64,000 nucleotides of DNA from Pseudomonas denitrificans (nom. rej.) (lineage in GTDB: Bacteria; Pseudomonadota; Gammaproteobacteria; Pseudomonadales; Pseudomonadaceae). A program made the position numbers and the translations under genes. The stretch is from the NCBI RefSeq assembly GCF_008807415.1, contig NZ_CP043626.1, positions 1,488,001-1,552,000 on the forward strand. Reading direction: 5' to 3'. Below are positions 49,347-64,000 of this stretch, in pieces. Within the stretch, counting starts at the first letter, position 1; every line of letters starts with the position of its first letter. The notes below the pieces were generated by a model that was not told the origin of the DNA, did not search any database, and saw only the letters and a program-made list of their open reading frames with translations.

Positions 49347-50279
49347 ATGAAGTTCAAGGAAGTCATTGCCTCTCTGTTCATTGGCACCATGCTGGTGGGT
49401 TGTGACCAGTCGGGCAAGACAACTGCCGACCCCGCCAACTGGCTCAGCGTTCCGACGTTGCCGATCATCCAGGATGCGATCCTGCCCCTGGCGCCGACCT
49501 TCGGTGGGCAGCGCGATGGCGTGCTGAGTCAGCAGATCTGCGCGCTGGCTACCGGAAAGGCCACACAGGGCCAGATCAACGAACAGCTCAGAAAACTGAA
49601 CATCGAGCCCACCCGTTTGCCGTTGACCAGCAACGATGCGGTGGCTTTGCTGGTCAACGGCAATGTGGCGGCGCAGACCATCGCTTGCGCCGCGTATCAG
49701 GCCACCGAAGTATTGCGCCCGATCGATATGCGCGACGTCATCAAGCCGGCGAGCCAGGCGAGTGATCTGCAAGAGCAAGGCACGACGGTCGCCGAGGTTG
49801 GCAAGGAAAAGGGCAGAGAGAAAGAAGCGAGCAAGGCCACGGCTCCAGCGAAAGATGTCGATGCCGGCCGCGTTGCCCAGCTACTGCCGCTGCGAATTGC
49901 CCAGGCACGAGCCAACGCGGACATCTTTGCCCTGATTGCGGAACAGTTGCAGCGCACACCAGGCCTCAGTATTCAGGAGTATCGCGACAAGGCTCGGGAT
50001 CTGTTCATCCGCCTGGCACCGATTTATCTGGAGCGAATCGCGCAGCAGATGCCGCCGAGCAACGCCGGCTACCAGGTCCAGCAAATGGATGCCCGGCGCT
50101 TCGTCTTCAGCAACAACGTCGGCGCGCGATTCGATTATTCCGTCGAGAATGGACTGTTGCTCAGTCAGAACGGAGTGATCTGGTATGGCAATGGACATTT
50201 ACTGGGTTCTGTCTATCGGTTGAGAGCGGCTTACTTCCCAGCAGGTGTCAGTAAGCTGTTGGCAGCGAAGCAGCCGTGA
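49347..50279 (+). CDS. lipoprotein A of the adhesin locus (paralogue of 57052-57957)
   Basis: Protein of 310 aa. The lipobox is LVGC (Cys19), so it is membrane-anchored. The mature part has NWLSVPTLPIIQDAILPLAP, a QICALATGKATQ segment, a charged, Lys/Glu-rich linker (about 140-175) and a conserved C-terminal half: ARANADIFALIAEQLQRTPG, LFIRLAPIYLERI, FDYSVENGLLL and an IWYGNGHLLG strand. The same blocks occur in lipoprotein B on the far side of the adhesin and TpgA genes. I do not recognise a known family. It ends 67 bases before a terminator and is transcribed separately from the adhesin gene, about 800 bases away. Confidence 0.85.
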   Translation: MKFKEVIASLFIGTMLVGCDQSGKTTADPANWLSVPTLPIIQDAILPLAPTFGGQRDGVLSQQICALATGKATQGQINEQLRKLNIEPTRLPLTSNDAVALLVNGNVAAQTIACAAYQATEVLRPIDMRDVIKPASQASDLQEQGTTVAEVGKEKGREKEASKATAPAKDVDAGRVAQLLPLRIAQARANADIFALIAEQLQRTPGLSIQEYRDKARDLFIRLAPIYLERIAQQMPPSNAGYQVQQMDARRFVFSNNVGARFDYSVENGLLLSQNGVIWYGNGHLLGSVYRLRAAYFPAGVSKLLAAKQP

Positions 50280-50346
50280 AGAGGAGGGCTGTAGATGGCG
50301 TTTCGGCTTTCCCGATCGGAGTGTTAGCTCCCTGTCCTGCATCATG

Positions 50347-50372
50347 AAAATCCCGGCTACTGCCGGGATTTT
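50347..50372. terminator. rho-independent terminator after lipoprotein A
   Basis: AAAATCCCGGC-TAC-TGCCGGGATTTT, a perfect hairpin with A and T runs on both sides, about 67 bases after the stop. Confidence 0.88.
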
Positions 50373-50379
50373 GCTTTCT

Positions 50380-50660
50380 GGAGTCAGCACCAGAGCATCT
50401 GCCGGGAAGCCATTGTCGAAGCGGGCTGCGCACCATTTGTCCAAATGGGCGCATGCCTGAAGGCGCTCGACCAGGGCCTCGGTAAATTCCTACGACCCAA
50501 TCAGTATTGGGTTCATATTCCAATTTCCCCCATCTCTCTAGCATGCCTTCCATCAGGATTATCTGGCGATAATTCATGTGATTAAAGGCAGAACCTAAAG
50601 TGATTTCTAGAAGTTTGAGCGAGCAGGCGTGCAGCCTTTCCATGGCCGCCAGCTGCAATT
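50380..50660 (-). pseudogene. possible gene remnant in an AT-richer stretch upstream of the adhesin
   Basis: The minus strand has protein-like sequence split over two frames: MERLHACSLKLLEITLGSAF and LERWGKLEYEPNTDWVVG, then, in another frame, EALVERLQACAHLDKWCAA and RFDNGFPADALVLTP. The change of frame is near 50487-50500. This stretch is clearly poorer in GC than the flanking genes. No family was recognised and no stop is placed before the terminator, so it may also be non-coding. The rest of the 50280-51072 gap should hold the adhesin promoter; nothing else is seen. Confidence 0.25.
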
Positions 50661-51075
50661 GGCGCGTCCGCCTCGCTCTTCGCCACGCTGGACTCCTCGC
50701 TGTAGGGCGCTCCTGCCTCGGCCAAATCGAAGTCGCCGTTAATTATCCATGCACCTCTTCTGTATCCGGACTTTCCGGCTCGCCCGCGGCGGATCTGGCC
50801 GTCGGGGCGAGTGCTGTCGCCGGCCCGGATGAGTTCGCCCCACGTCCTGTAAATCGCTGCATCCCAACGCAAGTTCCGCCAGGGGTGTCGGTGCGTTTTT
50901 CCTGAATCGAAATGGCGTTGCGGATCACCCGCCGGGAAGTTGCCGCTTCGGCGATCAGGCAATTTCCGGGGCGAGTGACTCCCGAGCATCGCGTCGTGCG
51001 TAGCCGCTACCTGCCGAACCAGCAGGTATCCGTAACGCCGAGCGCCATCGCGGTTTTGCTTCTTCTGGAGTAATG

Positions 51076-54000
51076 ATGAACAAGGTGTATCGTCTGGTTT
51101 GGAATGCCGCCCTCAATGCCTGGGTGGTCGCTTGTGAATTCGCCACGGCCAAGGGCAAGGGCAAGCGTGGCTCGCGGCGCCAGAAAGCCCGTGGAGCAGG
51201 CCTGGCGGCGACTTCGCTGGCGTTGGCCATCGGGGCCTCGCAGGTCGCTTGGGCCGAAGAAGCGCAAAGCGTGAATTTCGCTGATGCCTCGAAGTCCATC
51301 AGCAGTTCTGCATCCGCTTCCCGTGATGCGGAGTCGTCCGCAGCCCTGGCATATTCCACGGCCCTGGGCGCCTTCAGGGCTGTAGCGGAGACTCCTGCTG
51401 CTGCGATAGGCAGCACCAGCTACGCGCTTGCTCCGGCGTCGGCCGCAGAAGCCACCAGCCCGAAAGCCGGATCGCTGGGTGCGGCTCTGATGAACTCCGC
51501 GGGCAGCACGGAGGCGCATTACGCAAGTGTCAACGACGGCAATGTCCAGGGCGCGAACTACACCAACGACGGCGCGAGCGGGACCAACTCGATGGCCGTC
51601 GGCGTCAGCGCGAAAGCTTCCGGTGCGCGAGCCACGGCGCTGGGCTACAGCACCAGCGCTGGCGCCATCGACAGCCTGGCACTTGGTTCGGGTTCGAAGA
51701 CCACCGCGATTCGCAGCATGGCAATCGGCACCAATGCATCGGCGGCCGGAGTAGGGGCCATTGCCCAGGGTGACGGCGCCAGCGCGACTCCCAACGATTC
51801 CATTGCCATGGGCACGAATGCCCAGACGCTCGCCAACGACGCCAGTATCGCCATCGGCAAGGACTCGGTATCCCAATCCATCCTCGGCCCCGGTTCGGTG
51901 GCAGTCGGCAACGAAGCCCAGGCACTGACCAGCGGTAGCGTTGCCATCGGTTATCAGGCGCTGGCCGATGAGGTCAATCCGCCCAGCGCGTTTACCGGCA
52001 ACGTCGCTATCGGCCGCATGGCCCATGCGACCAACAGCCTGACGGACCCCAGCGAGGCTTCGACGGCTGTCGGTAACGAGTCCTTCGCCGACAAGGGTGG
52101 CGTAGCGATCGGTGAGCGCACCAATGCCGCGGGCAAACTCAGCACCGCTCTGGGTAACTCTGCCTCCGCGACCATGGATAATGCCGTGGCAGTGGGCCCG
52201 AAGGCCAAGGCAACGGCTATCGATGCGGTGGCCATTGGTAACGGCGCCTCGGCGCAACACGCGCGCTCGGTGGCCCTGGGCGTCAGCTCCACCACCAGTG
52301 CGACGGTTGCCACGAAGAACATCCAGATCGGCGACACCACCTATGATTTCGCCGGTGTGGCACCGACCAGCACCGTCAGCATCGGCAACGTTGGCAACGA
52401 ACGTACGCTGACGAACGTTGCGGCGGGGCGAATCAGCCGGACCAGCACGGACGCCATCAACGGCTCCCAGCTCTTTGCGGTCACCGAGTCGATCGATGAC
52501 GTGATCGCCACGCCGATCACCTTCGCCGGCAACACCGGCAGCACGGCCAAGCAACTGGGCGACACCCTGACTGTGCAAGGTGCAGCCACCACGGCTGGCA
52601 CGTACAGTGGCGCAAACCTGAAGACCGAGGTCGATGCCAATGGGCAGCTCAATCTGCTGCTGGCCGACAACCCGGCCTTCACCAGCCTGACAGCCGGCGG
52701 AACGACGACGCTGGATGGGGCGGGCCTGACCATTGCCAATGGTCCTAGCGTGACCACTGCCGGGATCGATGCCGGCGGCGAGCAGATCAGGAACCTTGCC
52801 CAGGGCGTCGACGGTACCGACGCGGTCAACGTCGACCAGTTGAACGACACGATCAACCGCTCCGCCAAAACGCACTACTACAGTGTCAATGACAACGGCG
52901 AGCAAGGTGGCAACTACGACAACGACGGCGCCACTGGTGTCAACGCACTGGCAGCTGGCGTGGGCGCCAAGGCCGCGCAGGAAGGCGCAGTTGCCCTGGG
53001 CTCGGGTTCGGTAACCGATGCTGCCGTAGCCACCACTGGCACCACCGTTGCCGGCACGGATTACACCTTCGCCGGAGCCGCGCCGACCAGCACGGTCAGC
53101 GTGGGCAGTGTTGGCAATGAGCGCACCATCACCAACGTTGCGGCTGGCCGCCTGAGCGAAACCAGCACGGATGCGGTCAACGGTTCTCAGCTGTTCGCCA
53201 CCAACTCCGCCATCGGCCACCTCGATGCGGGTTCGGTGAAGTACGACGTCAACCCTGACGGCACCATCAACTACAACACCATCGCCCTGGGTGGTGATAC
53301 CTACAACACGACCACCAGGACCGGCGGCACGCGAATCAAGAATCTCGCTGCGGGTGTGGACGGTGGCGATGCGGTCAACGTCGACCAGCTGAACGATACC
53401 GTCGACGGCGCGAAGACCCATTACTACAGCGTCAATGACAACGGCGTACTGGGCGACAACTACAACAACGACGGCGCCACCGGTGTGAACGCACTGGCCG
53501 CTGGCATGGGCGCCAAAGCCGCACAGGACGGCGCAGTTGCGCTGGGTTCGGGTTCGGTAACCGATGCTGCTGTAGCCACCACTGGCACCACCGTTGCCGG
53601 CACGGATTACACCTTCGCCGGAACCGCGCCGACCAGCACGGTCAGCGTGGGCAGTGTTGGTAATGAGCGCACCATCACCAACGTTGCGGCGGGCCGCCTG
53701 AGCGAAACCAGCACCGATGCGGTCAACGGTTCTCAGCTGTTCGCCACCAACTCCGCCATCGACAACCTCGATGCGGGTTCGGTGAAGTACGACGTCAACC
53801 CCGACGGCAGCATCAACTACAACAGCGTGACCCTGGGTGGTGACACCTACAGCAGCACCACCAGGAACGGTGGGACACGCATCACCAACGTCGCTCGCGG
53901 CGTGGGTGACAGCGATGCGGTGAACATGTCTCAGCTCAATGAGACCAACACCCAGGTTACCCAGAACACCACGGACATCGGTGGTCTGGACGGCCGTGTC

Positions 54001-56090
54001 ACCAACATCTACGAGACGGGCACCAAGTACTTCCACGCCAATTCCACCGGTACGGATTCCGTGGCTTCCGGCCAGGATTCCGTGGCCATAGGCATGGGCG
54101 CCTTGTCCAGTCACGACGGTAGTGTGGCGCTGGGGGCGGGTTCCGTTGCGGACGGCAGTACGCTGGAGCACGAGGCTTATCTGGCAGGTGGAACTGCCAA
54201 GGGTGAGGTGAACATCGGTGATCGTCGCATCACTGGCGTGGCGGCTGGCGCAGAGGATACCGATGCGGTCAACGTAGCCCAGTTGAAGCTCGCGGCGAGC
54301 GAAGCATCGGCCGGTGCAGTCAAGTACGACGTCAATCCCGACGGCAGCATCAACTACGACAGCGTGACCCTGGGGGCGACACCTACAACAGCACCACCAG
54401 GACCGGTGGGACACGCATCACCAACGTCGCTCGCGGCGTGGACGACAGCGACGCGGTCAACATGTCTCAGCTCAATGAGACCAACGCCCAGGTTACCCAG
54501 AACACCACGGACATCGGTGGTCTGGACGGCCGCGTCACCAACATCTACGAGACAGGCACCAAGTACTTCCACGCCAATTCCACCGGCACAGATTCCGTGG
54601 CTTCCGGGCAGGATTCCGTGGCCATTGGCATGGGCGCCGTTTCCAGCCATGACAGCAGCGTGGCATTGGGCGCGGGTTCGATCACGGACGAGGCTGTCGC
54701 CACCACTGGTACGACAATCCGAGGCACAAGTTACAGCTTCGCCGGCACCGCGCCGACCAGCACGGTCAGCGTGGGCAGTGTCGGCAATGAGCGCACCATC
54801 ACCAACGTTGCTGCTGGCCGTCTGAGTGAAACCAGCACTGATGCCGTCAACGGTTCGCAACTGTTTGCGACCAACCAGGCCATCGAGAATATCGACGGCA
54901 GCCTCGGCACGCTGGACAAGGGCGCGGTCAAGTATGTGATCAACGAGGACGGCAGCGTCGACTACAACGCCGTTGCCCTGGGTGGTACGACTTACAACAA
55001 GTCCGGACGCTCCGGCGGTACGCGCATTACCAACCTCGCTGCGGGGGTCGACGGCGGCGACGCGGTCAACGTCGACCAGCTGAATATCGCGATGGCCAAT
55101 GCCGAGACGCACTACTACAGCGTCAACGACGGTGGCGAGCAGGGTGGCAACTACGCCAATGATGGCGCGCAGGGCAAGAACTCGGTGGCAGCGGGTGTCA
55201 ATGCCAGTGCTACCTCCGATGGTGGGGTGGCCCTGGGCAGCGACTCGGTGGCAGCTCGGGAAGCGGGCGCGACCGGGTATGTTCCTGATGGCGCTACCGA
55301 TGAGCAGACGCAGGCGATTGCCGCGACCACCAGCACCAGGGGCGCAGTCAGCGTCGGTGACGCAAGCTCCGGTATCTATCGCCAGGTGACTGGCGTTGCT
55401 GCCGGCAGCGAGGACAGCGACGCAGTCAACGTGGCCCAGCTCAAGGGGGTGGTGAACAGTACCAACGCTGATATCACCAACATCGCCAACGGCAAGGACG
55501 GCATGTTCCAGGTGAACAACACCAGTAACCTGCCCAAGCCGAAAGTCACCGGAAAGGACGCCGTGGCTGGTGGTGCTGGCGCCGAGGCTTCCGGGGCCAA
55601 CTCCGCAGCCATCGGTACCCGCGCCAAGGCGACCGCCAGCAACTCGGTCGCGCTGGGTAATGACTCGATCGCCGATCGCTCCAACTCGGTCTCGGTGGGC
55701 AGCGCCGGTTCGGAACGGCAGATCACCAACCTGGCCGCCGGCACCGCCGATACGGATGCGGTCAACCTGGCTCAGCTCAACAAGGCTACCGGGGACATCA
55801 ACAACAACATCAACAACGTCTATAGCGACCTCAAGCATGACTTGAAGAAGCAGGACGACACCTTGAGTGCTGGTATCGCGGGAGCGCTGGCGGCCGCGAC
55901 GCTGCCACAGCCGTATGTGCCGGGTGCAAGCATGGCGTCGGTGGGTATGGGCAACTACCGCGGGCAGAACGCCCTGGCAATTGGTGTTTCGCGCATCTCC
56001 GACAACGGCAAATGGGTAACCAAACTTTCCGGCAACACGGACTCCCAGGGCGAGTTCGGCGTGTCGGTTGGCGTTGGTTACCAGTGGTGA
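51076..56090 (+). pseudogene. trimeric autotransporter adhesin, YadA/Ata family (frame broken by a 1-base shortfall)
   Basis: About 1671 aa if one G is added to the G-run at 54372-54376; as given the frame shifts there. N-terminus: extended signal peptide region MNKVYRLVWNAALNAWVVAC, then a long signal peptide to about residue 60. Head: YadA-like 14-residue repeats (SMAIGTNASAAG, SVALGVSSTTS). Then several stalk modules, each with a neck motif such as AAGRLSETSTDAVNGSQLF, a YYSVND segment and a VKYDVNPDG segment. C-terminus: coiled coil and the 12-strand-forming anchor (YRGQNALAIGVSRISDNGKW, GVSVGVGYQW). It makes a trimeric surface fibre for adhesion. TTG-GGAG ribosome site at 51067-51070 favours the second ATG. 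Followed by TpgA in one operon. Confidence 0.9.
52873..53964 (+). repeat. tandem 546-bp coding repeat in the adhesin stalk
   Basis: Two 182-residue modules begin at the HYYSVNDN codons (52873 and 53419). Long stretches are nearly identical at DNA level, for example about 53021-53190 against about 53567-53736 with only a few silent changes. A further pair (53923 and 54459) repeats NMSQLNETN and YFHANSTGTDSVAS. Confidence 0.85.
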
Positions 56091-56108
56091 TCCCTTCCTG
56101 AGGTCGAG

Positions 56109-56140
56109 GCCCGGCTCAGCCGGGCCATTCGCGGTTTTTT
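56109..56140 (+). terminator. hairpin with T-run between adhesin and tpgA
   Basis: GGCCCGGCTCAGCCGGGCC (56109-56127), then CATTCGCGG and TTTTTT. It is 19 bases after the adhesin stop and 14 bases before the TpgA start. It probably lowers, but need not abolish, read-through into tpgA. Confidence 0.7.
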
Positions 56141-56153
56141 CGAGGTTTATCAG

Positions 56154-56966
56154 ATGTTCGAGCAATTCAAACTGGGCGGCCTGAAGCTGGCCCTCGCGGC
56201 ATCCGCGCTGACTGCGCTGGCCGCCTGCGGAACCGTCAGCGACGTCGACTCGGCAGGGCATACGCAGCAGCCGGTGTTCCCGGCGATGGACGATGCCAGC
56301 CTTCCCGAAGGCAGTTACGTCAACCTGGAAAACCTGGGCAAGATGCGTCCGGGCATGACCAAGCATCAGGTCCAGGACCTGCTGGGCCACCCTCAGTTCT
56401 CTGAGGGCATGTTCGGCGTGCGTGAGTGGGACTACATCTTCAAGTTCCGTCAGGCCGAAGGCCAACCTGACAAGGTCTGCCAGTACAAGGTGCTCTACGA
56501 CAAGGACCACATTGCGCAGTCCTTCTACTTCCTCCCGGCAGATTGCCAGCAGGCGGCCCCGGCGCCGGTGCCGGCACCCTCGCCGGCGCCTCAACCCAGG
56601 GCGCGGACACTCAATCTGGAGGCAGATGCCTCGTTTGCCTTCGGTAGCGCAGTGCTGCGTCCGGAAGGCAAGGCGAAGCTGGATGAGCTGGCCGAAGGCC
56701 TGAAGAGCGCCGAAGTCACTTCAGTGGAAATCGTCGGCTACACCGACCGCATCGGTAGCGTGCAGAACAATATCCGCCTGTCCCAGGCGCGGGCCAATGC
56801 GGTGCGCTCCTACCTGATGCAACACGGTATCTCCGGAGCGCTGATCAGCGCCGAGGGGAGAGGGCCTGCTCAACCGCTGGTCAATTGTCCGGGAGCATCG
56901 ACACCCGAGGTCATTGCCTGCCTGGCGCCTAACCGTCGCACGAGCGTGGCGGTTCAGGCGAACTGA
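56154..56966 (+). CDS. tpgA: TpgA-type OmpA-domain lipoprotein, partner of the trimeric autotransporter
   Basis: Protein of 270 aa. Lipobox LAAC (Cys25). N-terminal SmpA/BamE-like domain (residues about 55-115: LGKMRPGMTKHQVQDLLGHP, WDYIFKFR). Pro/Ala-rich linker (APAPVPAPSPAPQPRA). C-terminal OmpA peptidoglycan-binding domain (FAFGSAVLRPEGKAKLDELA, VGYTDRIGS, LSQARANAVRSYL). In Acinetobacter, TpgA has this same combination, sits next to the Ata/AtaA gene and is needed to place the fibre on the cell surface while holding peptidoglycan. Gene order here is identical: adhesin then TpgA, 63 bases apart. Confidence 0.88.
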   Translation: MFEQFKLGGLKLALAASALTALAACGTVSDVDSAGHTQQPVFPAMDDASLPEGSYVNLENLGKMRPGMTKHQVQDLLGHPQFSEGMFGVREWDYIFKFRQAEGQPDKVCQYKVLYDKDHIAQSFYFLPADCQQAAPAPVPAPSPAPQPRARTLNLEADASFAFGSAVLRPEGKAKLDELAEGLKSAEVTSVEIVGYTDRIGSVQNNIRLSQARANAVRSYLMQHGISGALISAEGRGPAQPLVNCPGASTPEVIACLAPNRRTSVAVQAN

Positions 56967-57051
56967 GGCTGAGGCGCAGCAGCGGCCAGCTGTTGCGCCT
57001 TCCTTACTTCTGGCACCCCTCTCTTTTTCTCTTCTCCAGCTCCTGCCTGCC

Positions 57052-57957
57052 ATGATCCTTCGATACTGCGTCCTTGCTCTTGCCTTGAGCTCCCTGGCCT
57101 TGTCTGGCTGCAGGGAGCCGCACCCAGCTCAACCCTCGGGAAGCGCTGCCGTTCATCGCAACTGGTTGAGTCTACCTGCCTTGCCGTTGGTGCAGGGCGC
57201 CGTGCTCGAGCTGGCGCCTCGGCTGGACAATGGCCTTACGGCGGAGTTGATGAACCAGATCTGCGGCCTGGCGCGCGGCGACCTGTCACAGGATCAGGTC
57301 AACCAGTTCCTGGCCGATCGAAGGCTGGACGCCGCGCCAGGGCAGGATCGCAACCCGGCTCTGGTGCTGCTGAAAAACGGTGACCGGGCGGGGCAGGCCA
57401 CCCTTTGTGCCGCCTACCTGGCGGGCACCGTGTTCAGTACGGCCGATCTGCAGCCATTTCTGGAGGCGAGCGCTGGTACCAACCACGCTGCCGATGGGAA
57501 AGCCAACCAGCCGGAGGCGACGGCGAGCCAGGACAGCGTGACGATGCTGCTGTCAGTACGGCTCGCCGTTGCTCGCGCCAATGCCGATGTCTTTGCATTG
57601 ATTGCCAGCGAAATGCAGCGGCGACCCGGGCTGACGCCCCTGGAAGTTCGCGAGCAGGTGCAGCAGCTTTTCAGCCGCCTGGCGCCAACCTATCTGGCAC
57701 GTATCCGTGCCCGCTTTCAGGCGCCCGGAACAGTGCTTCAACAGATTCGCCTGGACAAGGAGACGCTTGTTTTCAGCTCCTCCGATGGCGCCGATTTCGT
57801 GCTGGAAAAGGGGCAGCTGCGGCTTCGTCAGGACGGCGTGATGATCTATGGAGACGGTCGCCTGCATGGCCTGATTCGAGCATTGCAGGTGGCTTATTTC
57901 GACGCTCAGGCGGCGGCGTTGCTGACACCCTCTGACATGGCTGTGCCGGACAATTGA
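57052..57957 (+). CDS. lipoprotein B of the adhesin locus (paralogue of 49347-50279)
   Basis: Protein of 301 aa. Lipobox LSGC (Cys20). Shared blocks with lipoprotein A: NWLSLPALPLVQGAVLELAP, an ICGLARGDLSQ segment, ARANADVFALIASEMQRRPG, LFSRLAPTYLARI and a FVLEKGQLRLRQDGVMIYGD-type strand. The linker differs. It lies 85 bases after tpgA in the same direction, so it is probably the third gene of the adhesin operon. Start at 57052 follows a pyrimidine-rich stretch with no clear ribosome site. Function unknown; an accessory role in fibre assembly is inference. Confidence 0.82.
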   Translation: MILRYCVLALALSSLALSGCREPHPAQPSGSAAVHRNWLSLPALPLVQGAVLELAPRLDNGLTAELMNQICGLARGDLSQDQVNQFLADRRLDAAPGQDRNPALVLLKNGDRAGQATLCAAYLAGTVFSTADLQPFLEASAGTNHAADGKANQPEATASQDSVTMLLSVRLAVARANADVFALIASEMQRRPGLTPLEVREQVQQLFSRLAPTYLARIRARFQAPGTVLQQIRLDKETLVFSSSDGADFVLEKGQLRLRQDGVMIYGDGRLHGLIRALQVAYFDAQAAALLTPSDMAVPDN

Positions 57958-58146
57958 TCGCCTGGAGCCCCGCCGCGGTATAAACCGGATGACGCAACGG
58001 CTCTGCGCGTTTGCGGGCGGACGAATCAGAAGCCTCAGTACGGAAAGCCTGGGTGTGGACGAATGTCCTGTCAGAAATATCCTTAATCGACTTTGGGCGG
58101 CGGCTTCGCGGCGGGCAGAGCGGCAGAATGCGCGGCAGTCTTGTCG

Positions 58147-59753
58147 ATGCGCTCGGCAAGCTCGTATTCCGACTCAATAGGCCATTCTTCCGTGTCCGTA
58201 TCCGCCGCATCGCAGCCGTCTTCCTACGCCAGTTCCCTGCAGCCATCTTCGAATTGCCATCCGCATACCGCTCCCGAGCACCTGGCCGTGCTGGCCTGGC
58301 TGTTCGGCCTGGAGCCGCCGAACGTGGGAACCGCACGGGTACTGGAGCTGGGCTGCGGGAGTGGCGCCAACCTGCTGCCTTTTGCGACCCGAAATCGCCG
58401 CGCAAAGGTGCTGGGAATCGACCGATCGGATGACGCTGTCGAGTCGGGCCTGCAAGCGGTGCGGCAGCTGGGCCTCAACAACGTGCGGCTACACGCTGCC
58501 GACTTGGGTGAGATCACCGGGGAGCTGGGCCAGTTCGACTACATCATCTGCCACGACCACTACAGCCATCTGTCTTCCCAGGATCGTCGCGCTGTAGCGC
58601 GTATCTGCAAGGAAAACCTCGCCGCCAACGGGATCGCCTACGTCAACTTCAATACCTATCCGGGGTGGAAATCCCGTGAAATGGTGCGCGATGCCATGCT
58701 GTTGCGCCTGAGTGGCCGCGTACCGGGTGTGCAGGAACTGGCCGAGGCGCAGGGCATGTTCGACTTCCTGAAGCGCTGGGCGCATCTGGGGGGGAATGCG
58801 CTCAAAGGTGCGGTGGAGGAGTGCGAGTCGCTGCGCGGAGATCCTGCGCGTTTGTCCACCTTCCTCGAGCCGAGCAATACTCCGTTTTACCTGACTGACT
58901 TTGTACAGCGCTTCGAGCAGCACGGCCTGGCCTATCTGGCCGATACCCGCGCCGCCGGGATGTTCATCAACCATTTTCCCGAGGGCGTTCAGCAGGCGCT
59001 GCTCAGCGAGTGCGGGAACAGTCAGGTTGCCCTTGAGCAGTACTTCGACATCCTGACCAATCGCAGTTCCCGCCAGACACTGCTGGTCCACGCGGAGCAG
59101 GCGGATGCGATTCGCTACCGGTTGGCCCCGAGCGGTTGGCGAAGCTGCACGTCACGGCGCGCTTCGAGTGCGAAGGGGCGGTTCAGCTGGACGACAGCGA
59201 ACAGTCTTTCCGGGTGGCTGACGGCCGTCGCGTCGGCCTGCGTGGCGCAGCGATGAAAGTCGCTGCATACCGCCTCAACGAGGTTTGGCCTCGGACGCAG
59301 AATCTGCCGGCTCTACTGGCGTACGTCGAGCAACAGCTGGGGAGTCTGCCGCCCAACGCCGACGCGCAGTTGTTGGATCTGTTCGAGCACATTGTGGTGT
59401 CCGACTTTGGGCGCTTCCGGCTCTCAGCCGTGGTCGGCGGGCCGGGGGCGGCAGGGATGCCACGGGTCGACCCGGAAGTCATTGCCTACGCACAGCTGTC
59501 GGGCTGTATCGAAGGAAGCGTCACGTTCAACCCCTGGCACGAATCGGTCACGCTGGATGCATTCTCGGCGTTGCTGCTGCCGCTGCTGGACGGATGTCAT
59601 ACCCAGGATGAATTGCTCGAGGTCATTGCTGACGCCGTTGCAGAGGGGCGTCTCGGGTTCCTGCGCGACGATCGGCCGATCACCGATCGGGCAGAACTGG
59701 GCAGGGTCGGTGTTCTGCATCTGCATCGGGTGCTGGAGTCGCTGCTGGCCTGA
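58147..59753 (+). pseudogene. class I SAM methyltransferase with regulatory domain, PKMT-like (frame broken by a 1-base shortfall)
   Basis: About 535 aa if one C is added to CCCC at 59126-59129, restoring LAPERLAKLHVTARFECEG. Residues about 35-200 form the SAM-binding core (RVLELGCGSGANLLPFATRN, VLGIDRSDDAVESG, QFDYIICHDHYSHL, VNFNTYPGWKSREMVRDAML). Then the methyltransferase regulatory domain (TPFYLTDFVQRFEQHGLAYL) and a C-terminal winged-helix-like part. This is the plan of the rickettsial PKMT enzymes that methylate lysines of the autotransporter OmpB. The start is uncertain: 58147 (ATG) chosen, with GTG at 58192 and a TTG at 58093 as alternatives; no clear ribosome site. Confidence 0.78.
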
Positions 59754-61241: not shown

Positions 61242-64000
61242 TGCGCGGCCTCCGTGGGTTGATGCGCAGGTTTGGGTTGGCGACGCAGTAGCGACAGCAT
61301 CCAGACGAAGCAGATGGGCACGAAGATCACCCCCAGCAGCGTGGCGCTGAGCATCCCGCCGATCACCCCGGTGCCGATGGCGCGCTGGCTGGCGGCGCCG
61401 GCTCCGCTGGCGACCACCAGCGGCACTACGCCGAGGATGAAGGCCATAGAGGTCATGATGATCGGGCGGAAGCGCAGGCGCGCGGCCTGGATCGCGGCGT
61501 CGCGCAGGCTGTGGCCCTGTTCCCAGAGTTCCTTGGCGAATTCGACGATGAGGATCGCGTTCTTCGCCGCAAGACCAATGATGGTGATCAGGCCGACCTT
61601 GAAGTACACGTCGTTGGGCAGCCCGGTGACCGTCACCGCCAGCACCGCGCCGAGGGCGCCGATGGGCACGATGAGCATCACCGATAGCGGGATCGCCCAG
61701 CTCTCGTAGAGCGCCACCAGCAGCAGGAACACCACCAGGATCGCCAGGGCGAACAGTTGGGTGGCCTGGCCGCTGGCGACCTTCTCCTGGTAGGAGAGGC
61801 CGGTCCACTCGTAGCCGATGCCGGCCGGCAGCTCGCTTACCAGACGCTGCATTTCCGCCATGGCTTCGCCGGTGCTCACGCCCGGAGCGGCGTCGCCGGA
61901 GATGCGGATCGACGGGTAGCCGTTATAGCGCGCCAGCTGCACCGGGCCTTCTTCCCAGCGGGTGCTGACGAAGGCGGACAGCGGCACCAGCTCGCCGGCG
62001 CTGTTGGGCACGTAGAGCTTGAGCACGGCTTCCGGGGTCATCCGGTCGCCTTGTTCGGCCTGCACCACCACGCGCTGCTGGCGACCCGCGTTGGCGAAGT
62101 CGTTGATTACCGAGGAGCCGAACGCGGTGGACAGCGCGCTGCTGATGGACTCGAAGCTGACGCCCAGGGTGCGTGCCTTCTCGCGGTCGATCTCCAGGCG
62201 CAGCTGGGGAGCTTCGGCGAGGCCTTCCATCATGGCGTAGAGGATCTTCGGGTTGCCGTTGGCCTCGCCGAGCAATTGGTCGCGGGCCGCCAGCAGCGCT
62301 TCGCGGCCGAGGCCGGCGCGGTCCTGCAGGCGCAGCGAGAAGCCGCCGGAGTTGCCCAGACCGTCGATCGGCGGCGGGGTCACGGCCATGATCGCGCCGT
62401 CGCTGATGCCGGCGAAGCGTTCGTTGATCGCCGCGGTTTCCGCCTCCGCGGACTGCGATTTGTCACGCACGGACCAGTCCTTCAGGGTCGGGAAGGCCAG
62501 CGCGGCGTTCTCGCCCATGCCGGAGAAGCTGAAGCCCATCACCAGGAAGGACGAGGCCACGGCCTCGCGGGACTTGAGGAACTGCTCCAGCTCCTGGCCG
62601 GTGACGTCGGCGCGCGCACGGGTGGCGCCCGGCGGCAGCTGGATGTCGACGATCATGTAGCCCTGGTCTTCCACCGGCACGAAGGATTCCGGCAGGCGCA
62701 GGTAGCTGTAGCCGAGCAGGGCGACGATGCCGGCGTAGATCAGCATGTAGCGCCCGGCACGTTTCACCAGCGCGGTGTTGAGCAGCGTGTAGCGCTCGGT
62801 CAGCCGGTTGAAGCCACGGTTGAAGGCGCCGAAGAAGCCGCGCTTCTCGTGGTGACCTTCGGGGATCGGCTTGAGCAGCGTCGCGCACAGCGCCGGGGTG
62901 AAGGTCAGGGCGAGGAAGCCGGAGAACAGGATCGACACCGCCAGCGACAGGGAGAACTGCTGGTAGATCACGCCTACGGAGCCAGCCATGAATGCCAGCG
63001 GCATGAACACCGCCGACAGCACCAGGGTGATGCCGATGATCGCGCCGGAGACCTGGCCCATCGCCTTGACCGTGGCGGCGGCCGGGGAGAGGCCTTCCTC
63101 GGCCATGATCCGCTCGACGTTCTCCACCACCACGATGGCGTCGTCCACCAGGATGCCGATGGCCAGCACCATGCCGAACATGGTCATCATGTTCACCGAG
63201 AAGCCCAGCAGGTACATCATCGTCAGCGTGCCGAGCAGGCACACCGGCACCACGATGGCCGGGATCAGGGTGTAGCGCACGTTCTGCAGGAACAGGAACA
63301 TCACCAGGAACACCAGCACCATGGCTTCGATCAGGGTGTGGATCACCTTCTCGATGGCCACGTCGACGAAGCGCGAGGTGTCGTAGGGCACCGAGTACTC
63401 GACGTCGTCGGGGAAGTTCACCGACAGCTCGGCCAGGCGCTCCTTCACCAGCGCGGCGGTCTGCAGCGCGTTGGCGCCGGGGAGAGCTGGATGGCACCGG
63501 CCACGGTGGGCTTGCCGTCCAGGCGCGCGGTGAAGTTGTAGCTTTCGCTGCCCACTTCCAGGCGCGCCACATCGGCCAGCTTGACGGTGGAACCATCCGG
63601 ATTGGCGCGCAGGACGATGCGGCCGAACTCCGCCGGGTCGTCCAGGGTGCCTTTCACGGCGAGAGTGGCGGTCAGCTCCTGCTCGGTGCTGCCGGGGGAG
63701 GCGCCGAAGCTGCCGGCTGGTACCTGCACGTTCTGCCCGCGAATGGCGTTGCCCACGTCATCGATGGACAGCCCGTAGCCGACCAGCTTCTGCGGGTCGA
63801 TCCACACGCGCATGGCGGCTTCGGAGGAGAAGAACTGCAGCTTGCCGACGCCTTGTACGCGGCGCAGCTCGTTGTTGATGTTGCGCGCGGCGTAGTCGCC
63901 CAGGGCGGTGGTATCGGTGCGCGCGGAGCCTTCCTTGTAGTTGAGCGCGTAGATCAGCAGGAAGCCGGCGCTGGTCTGCTCGACCTCCAGCCCTTGCGTG
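61238..64000 (-). pseudogene. mexD: MexD, RND multidrug pump (5' part beyond the window; frame broken by a 1-base shortfall)
   Basis: The C-terminal 736 codons (61238-63448) and an N-terminal part still open at the right edge are joined by adding one G to GGGG at 63479-63482, which restores [23 protein letters not shown] motifs: [34 protein letters not shown], the TM4 relay [20 protein letters not shown] with both Asp, and TM segments to the end ([15 protein letters not shown]). Its sequence is very close to MexD of P. aeruginosa. It expels amphiphilic drugs from the periplasm together with MexC (outside the window) and OprJ. In P. aeruginosa NfxB represses the operon. Confidence 0.92.

Follow-up and report, generated by a model that had tools for sequence, protein, structure and literature searches.

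What might two paralogous lipoproteins and a methyltransferase be doing alongside a trimeric autotransporter adhesin (TAA)? The question is raised by a five-gene locus in Pseudomonas denitrificans (nom. rej.), found in a stretch of 64,000 nucleotides from a complete genome of 6.88 Mb (G000:C1:1488001-1552000; this whole stretch is referred to here as the window). Between 49347 and 59753 on the + strand the window carries, in order, lipA, the adhesin gene, a tpgA-like gene, lipB and a gene for a protein like the rickettsial protein lysine methyltransferases (PKMTs), and all five genes were found where a preliminary description of this DNA had put them. Our comparisons support the view that LipA and LipB are companions of TAAs, and because many Pseudomonas, and some plasmids of enterobacteria, have them alongside fibre genes, we regard these uncharacterised proteins as good candidates for the unknown helpers which build or anchor the fibre. 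The periplasmic crossing and anchoring of TAAs is only partly understood, and the only dedicated TAA helpers known to us are SadB and TpgA; an unnamed lipoprotein family found with TAAs in Pseudomonas and on the plasmids of five genera would provide a direct entry to this question.

Distribution and relationships of the lipoprotein family

LipA and LipB share 37% identity and belong to one family (referred to here as lip), in keeping with the earlier suggestion that they were paralogous. We looked for lip genes and YadA anchors in a genus sample of 25 genomes which included that of the window, and considered lip genes to be linked when they were within 12 kb of an anchor. The lip family was present in 18 of these genomes and the anchor in 19, with both found in 17, lip only in one, the anchor only in two and neither in five (Fisher p 0.002, with kinship ignored). 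Linkage was seen for 31 of the 37 lip places, and in 31/31 cases the gene was on the same strand as the anchor (kinship again ignored); our own rough estimate of linkage by chance is <1% per place, given 38 anchors in 25 genomes of ~6.3 Mb. Twenty of the linked places are downstream of the anchor and 11 are upstream, and among the downstream copies 19 lie 563-1079 bp after the anchor and one, a fragment, at 85 bp.

Across the bacterial family 22 of 248 sampled genomes carry lip, and outside the genus it was found at six places in four genomes (G102, G148, G196 and G205), with a TAA beside lip in all four of the places fetched. A set of 23 named lip loci from GTDB contigs, partly from the same genomes as the genus sample, included 17 with a TAA anchor match (one of these, L087, which is the same locus as in G018, was a weak and partial match) and six without a match in the stretch examined (L075, L078, L082, L085, L088 and L089). 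No TpgA intervenes between the TAA gene and the lip behind it in seven loci of Pseudomonas and in L090, a locus from the Enterobacteriaceae. The locus of Pseudomonas chlororaphis PCL1601 (L074) has two genes, the TAA gene and a lone downstream lip. A plasmid search with lipA and lipB returned five records with six places, all from the Enterobacterales (Escherichia, Serratia, Enterobacter, Hafnia and Arsenophonus; 23-26% identical) and all annotated as hypothetical. A same-strand gene annotated as YadA was seen near each of the six, the nearest being at 0.4 to 1 kb in four cases and ~5 kb in two (L203 and L206), and the gene order on E. coli pKTa005_5 is TAA, BamE-OmpA protein and lip. The outcome which the preliminary description had named as telling against it, lip homologues occurring mostly away from TAA genes, was therefore not seen in the genus, among the named loci or on the plasmids. 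It should be noted that a class-wide search with a lip profile found only the genome of the window among 369, though Enterobacterales members exist and this sample is too sparse, and that the E. coli plasmid lip gene, searched as DNA against 5,426 E. coli genomes, returned its own record only.

Neither LipA nor LipB matched Pfam-A (at E 0.1), the PDB sequences or any NCBIfam model above cut-off, and Foldseek and a further fold search with the better family model (helical plus beta, with a predicted local distance difference test score, pLDDT, of 85) gave no significant match; a single-sequence lipB model (pLDDT 50) was not used. The marks of the family are two conserved cysteines and a C-terminal G-x3-G, which are found in both LipA and LipB. 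The cysteines (65 and 114 in LipA numbering) are kept in 10/10 proteins of a wide alignment, while one of 26 rows has a single cysteine (Leminorella, L088), and the E. coli plasmid protein has both of them and no lipobox Cys. The lipobox +2 residue is acidic in 8/15 LipA rows (counted by eye) and Lys or Arg in 16 of the 26 LipB rows with a lipobox (counted by eye and post hoc, with the rows being related). Asp at this position was tried as a mark of lipA and rejected (6/15 vs 4/23, p 0.15, not significant, with five B rows mis-read by the script). We also noted an orphan lipA-type gene at L039 8516-10153, followed 27 bp on by a tetratricopeptide repeat-like protein with a glycosyltransferase-like look (by eye).

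A tree of 46 lip copies, from which fragments of <180 residues were excluded, places the upstream (12 rows) and downstream (28 rows) copies apart with one change, leaving six orphans uncounted. When the long row L046_6972 is left out, the upstream clade, which then contains 11 upstream copies and three orphans, has a support of 99/95. As upstream and downstream copies separate on the tree, A and B are probably old subfamilies and not the products of a recent local duplication.

A probably movable block and the possible role of its lipoproteins

The gene order set out in the preliminary description recurs as a whole block in two other Pseudomonas genomes, G002 and G022, and in these as in the window the block is placed between a cupin gene and resistance-nodulation-division (RND) efflux genes. 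G002 has the cupin gene ahead of lipA and the RND genes after the PKMT gene; in G022, where the RND genes also follow PKMT, what remains of the cupin gene is a stretch of 88 bp just upstream of lipA which matches its end. The cupin, MgtC and RND stretches are found together in G023, where the block is absent. Since the flanks lie together in that genome and lip, the anchor and PKMT had no match in G056, the site looks to have acquired or lost the block as a single unit.

Two known systems offer comparisons for the lipoproteins and their neighbours. In the AtaA–TpgA system of Acinetobacter the TAA is followed by a BamE-OmpA protein, TpgA, which ties the anchor to the peptidoglycan. The window has a tpgA-like gene directly behind the adhesin gene (63 bp), and the product, which has both BamE (64.7 bits) and OmpA (74.1 bits) domains, agrees with TpgA in domains and position and matches NF047726, the NCBIfam model for TpgA, with E 1e-42. 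However, it scores 146.2 bits against a curated cut-off of 350, and the window adds two lipoproteins and a PKMT to the pair; judged by this score, it is a TpgA-like homologue and not a TpgA equivalog. With this qualification the pairing of adhesin and TpgA stands as first described, the YadA anchor of the adhesin being clear (PF03895, 76.6 bits with a cut-off of 22.7, window 55905-56087). The second system is that of Salmonella, in which the inner-membrane lipoprotein SadB is the helper of the TAA SadA. As there, a lipoprotein gene adjoins the TAA gene and a helper role is likely, but LipA and LipB represent two copies on fixed sides, are accompanied by a tpgA-like gene and belong to another sequence family; by sequence we place them outside the SadB family (DUF3251), because they have no Pfam match.

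We consider it probable that the block is a movable TAA module in which LipA and LipB aid the periplasmic passage, trimer assembly or anchoring of the adhesin. The adhesin would be exported by Sec and inserted into the membrane via its YadA anchor, which the TpgA-like protein would fasten to the peptidoglycan, and LipA and LipB, as members of a two-cysteine periplasmic lipoprotein family, would act on the adhesin, each at its own step, in a job which may resemble that of SadB for SadA though coming from a different sequence family. At some loci lip is found downstream in the absence of TpgA, and at others there is only an upstream lip, which suggests that each helper is separately useful. The gene content, the family, its linkage, the two position-bound subfamilies and the boundaries of the module are observations; that the lipoproteins work in the periplasm on the adhesin is what we infer. 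A more detailed version, which we hold tentatively and rather doubt, is that LipA and LipB represent two branches of a new family dedicated to TAA biogenesis, each tied to one side of the adhesin gene and working at its own membrane, LipA at the inner (in line with its acidic +2 residues) and LipB at the outer (in line with its Lys or Arg), with a disulfide-stabilised periplasmic domain which holds the trimerising chains or passes them to the β-barrel assembly machinery (BAM) and TpgA.

Several observations weigh against a movable module with dedicated lipoprotein helpers. Six of the 37 lip places in the genus sample are away from any anchor found (a fragment in G004, G008:C16, G010:C20, G014:C42 on a 7 kb contig, G018, where tblastn gave a weak match to a diverged anchor, and G021:C22), and for 11 of the 38 anchors there is no lip gene in the 12 kb range, so that not every TAA needs one (this direction was counted within the genus). 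Three Pseudomonas copies, from sp. ANT_J12, chlororaphis and frederiksbergensis (L073, L074 and L084), are probably not lipidated because Tyr replaces the lipobox Cys, and the Budvicia and Leminorella homologues (L085 9995-10753 and L088 6436-7182) have no visible lipobox or signal, and no TAA in the stretch examined. Support for the branch dividing A from B is weak (86/46), L046_6972 being at its base, and G056, although of the same species as the window, had no match to lip, the anchor or PKMT. The adhesin and PKMT genes are also broken in this assembly. Finally, the linkage could also reflect co-inheritance in one mobile block.

An alternative is that the lipoproteins are carried along with the adhesin locus or regulate it, for instance as sensors of envelope stress or as lipoproteins displayed on the surface with the fibre, and take no part in assembly. 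The orphan copies, the absence of a match to a known fold and the strong hairpin which separates lipA from the adhesin gene would all suit such proteins, but same-strand linkage across genera and plasmids and subfamilies specific to each side exceed what a passenger would need, and we think this alternative improbable.

The methyltransferase

The PKMT gene differs from the lipoprotein genes in its distribution. For the PKMT METHYLTRANSFERASE, the intact G002 orthologue matches PKMT1 best in the PDB set (E 7e-60) and also PKMT2 (E 2e-49); these are the two Rickettsia enzymes with the entries 5dnk and 5doo. The rickettsial PKMTs methylate lysines of OmpB. The domain order is that of the rickettsial enzymes, as the preliminary description had it: an S-adenosylmethionine (SAM)-binding domain, PF10119 and PF21782 were found with the two window fragments scanned apart, and the order was seen in one frame in L100. 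In contrast to PKMT1 and PKMT2, the window PKMT adjoins a trimeric autotransporter, and it is without the N-terminal YxxxPY motif of most class-wide relatives. This motif (our own criterion) is present in none of the four TAA-linked PKMTs (0/4; window 58087-58260; L033, L034 and L099) and in none of the three distant family rows (0/3), whereas it occurs in 34/37 class-wide rows and in the one G013 protein (1/1); the activity of the TAA-linked PKMTs may therefore differ.

Close PKMTs were found in 5/25 genus genomes (E 1e-20). In G000, G002 and G022 the gene is behind lipB, while in G023 (L099 4536-6209) it is directly behind tamA-tamB, with a same-strand TAA-TpgA pair ~8 kb upstream of it, and in G013 (L100 8005-9588) it is again directly behind tamA-tamB, where the 18 kb fetched contain no TAA. 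The place behind tamA-tamB is a second link of PKMT to the type V assembly machinery. A methyltransferase gene lying beside unrelated genes in close relatives had been named as a result that would count against the first account of the locus; the gene is behind lipB in three of the five genomes and behind tamB in two, and is not a general TAA companion. Class-wide, PKMT was found in 36 of 368 other genomes (E 1e-30), and we inspected 36 stretches from 33 of these (the weakest, G417, G463 and G628, were excluded) plus three from distant family genomes. No match to a YadA anchor, to lip or to tamB was seen near PKMT in any of these 39 stretches (4 to 19 kb, searched with our own profiles from Pseudomonas rows, which may miss distant or far genes), and PKMT as a general companion of type V systems was rejected for this reason. 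A two-partner secretion (TPS) domain is directly beside PKMT in G513 and G401 alone, both of one genus (44 genomes searched), where a large FHA-like TPS adhesin is right behind PKMT (L139 1-6255 and L140 11062-16857), and none of the PF03797 places is beside a PKMT by coordinates. As far as these comparisons go, the PKMT is a later local recruit to the block.

For the further proposal that the methyltransferase modifies the fibre, local linkage and the rickettsial precedent are the only positive evidence. As a later addition, PKMT might act before export on the lysines of a type V protein, methylating them as the Rickettsia enzymes do those of OmpB, and that it methylates the adhesin or another envelope protein is a guess. 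Methylation of the adhesin itself, altering its stability or adhesion, would fit with PKMT1 and PKMT2 being the best solved relatives, with PKMT ending the block in three genomes and, in a fourth, having its place after tamB and downstream of a TAA, and with an FHA-like adhesin adjoining it in two genomes of a different genus. Against this, the outside stretches have no TAA anchor, the four TAA-linked enzymes lack the YxxxPY motif and the PKMT-linked TAAs are not enriched in lysine (2.4-2.6%, from the second fragment only in the case of the window, which is within the 0.8-5.7% of others), and we consider it unlikely. Somewhat less doubtful, and still not what we would expect, is a functional tie between PKMT and the RND efflux genes, or PKMT being an unrelated neighbour which ends the block. 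PKMT ends 57 bp from a convergent efflux gene in the window, G002 and G022 likewise have RND genes after it, and the relatives outside the genus have no TAA nearby; on the other hand, the RND genes are on the opposite strand and are present without an adjoining PKMT in G023 and G003, and PKMT has the same orientation as the adhesin genes. If the PKMT link were true, it would be the first case known to us in which lysine methylation of the rickettsial type goes with a trimeric adhesin.

Layout of the locus and frame breaks

The features of the locus are listed in Table 1. The order of the five genes in the preliminary description holds. It did not mention that the adhesin and PKMT genes are each in two frames here, and lipA may be a transcription unit of its own.

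Table 1. Features of the TAA locus in window coordinates.
Feature	Position	Strand	Characteristics
lipA	49347..50279	+	310 aa lipoprotein, lipobox LVGC-DQ, upstream-type family member
11-bp hairpin, terminator-like, between lipA and adhesin	50347..50372	+	-21.4 kcal/mol, z -4.0
TAA first frame	51073..54375	+	ESPR-like start (by eye), YadA-type repeats; end is the limit of the colinear match to the G002 adhesin
TAA second frame, to YadA anchor and stop	54372..56090	+	Frame break
tpgA-like	56154..56966	+	Lipobox (by eye), BamE domain, OmpA domain
lipB	57052..57957	+	301 aa lipoprotein, lipobox LSGC-RE, downstream-type family member
PKMT-like first frame	58192..59127	+	SAM-binding domain and PF10119; probable GTG start
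PKMT-like second frame	59130..59753	+	C-terminal winged-helix domain PF21782; frame break

The adhesin gene is split near 54.37 kb, so that it does not run in one intact frame from signal to anchor as a YadA-type TAA should, and the PKMT gene is split near 59.13 kb; in G002 and G022 each of them occupies a single frame. Alongside, the gene for the RND efflux pump is likewise in two frames near 63.48 kb (window 63445-63484), with pieces that are 96-100% identical to those of G002, G022 and G023. Three breaks within 9.1 kb, one of them in a gene this similar to its relatives, suggest assembly errors, and we consider indel errors of this kind likelier than true gene decay.

The gap of ~790 bp between lipA and the adhesin gene contains the strong hairpin, and it is for this reason that lipA may be transcribed apart from the adhesin; the tpgA-like gene is followed by lipB after 85 bp and lipB by the probable PKMT GTG start after 234 bp. 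A consensus terminator scan did not list the hairpin and found terminator-like sites to be no commoner than in shuffles, as was also the case for sites in a sigma-70 promoter scan.

Two further observations concern type V proteins elsewhere in this genome. Another TAA has a neighbour (L105 6720-7501) which matches the first half of TpgA only, the BamE part, and is without lip. Past the end of the window, G000:C1:1556173-1571619 includes a classical autotransporter domain and a TPS domain ~28 kb or less from the adhesin, making this a type V-rich stretch.

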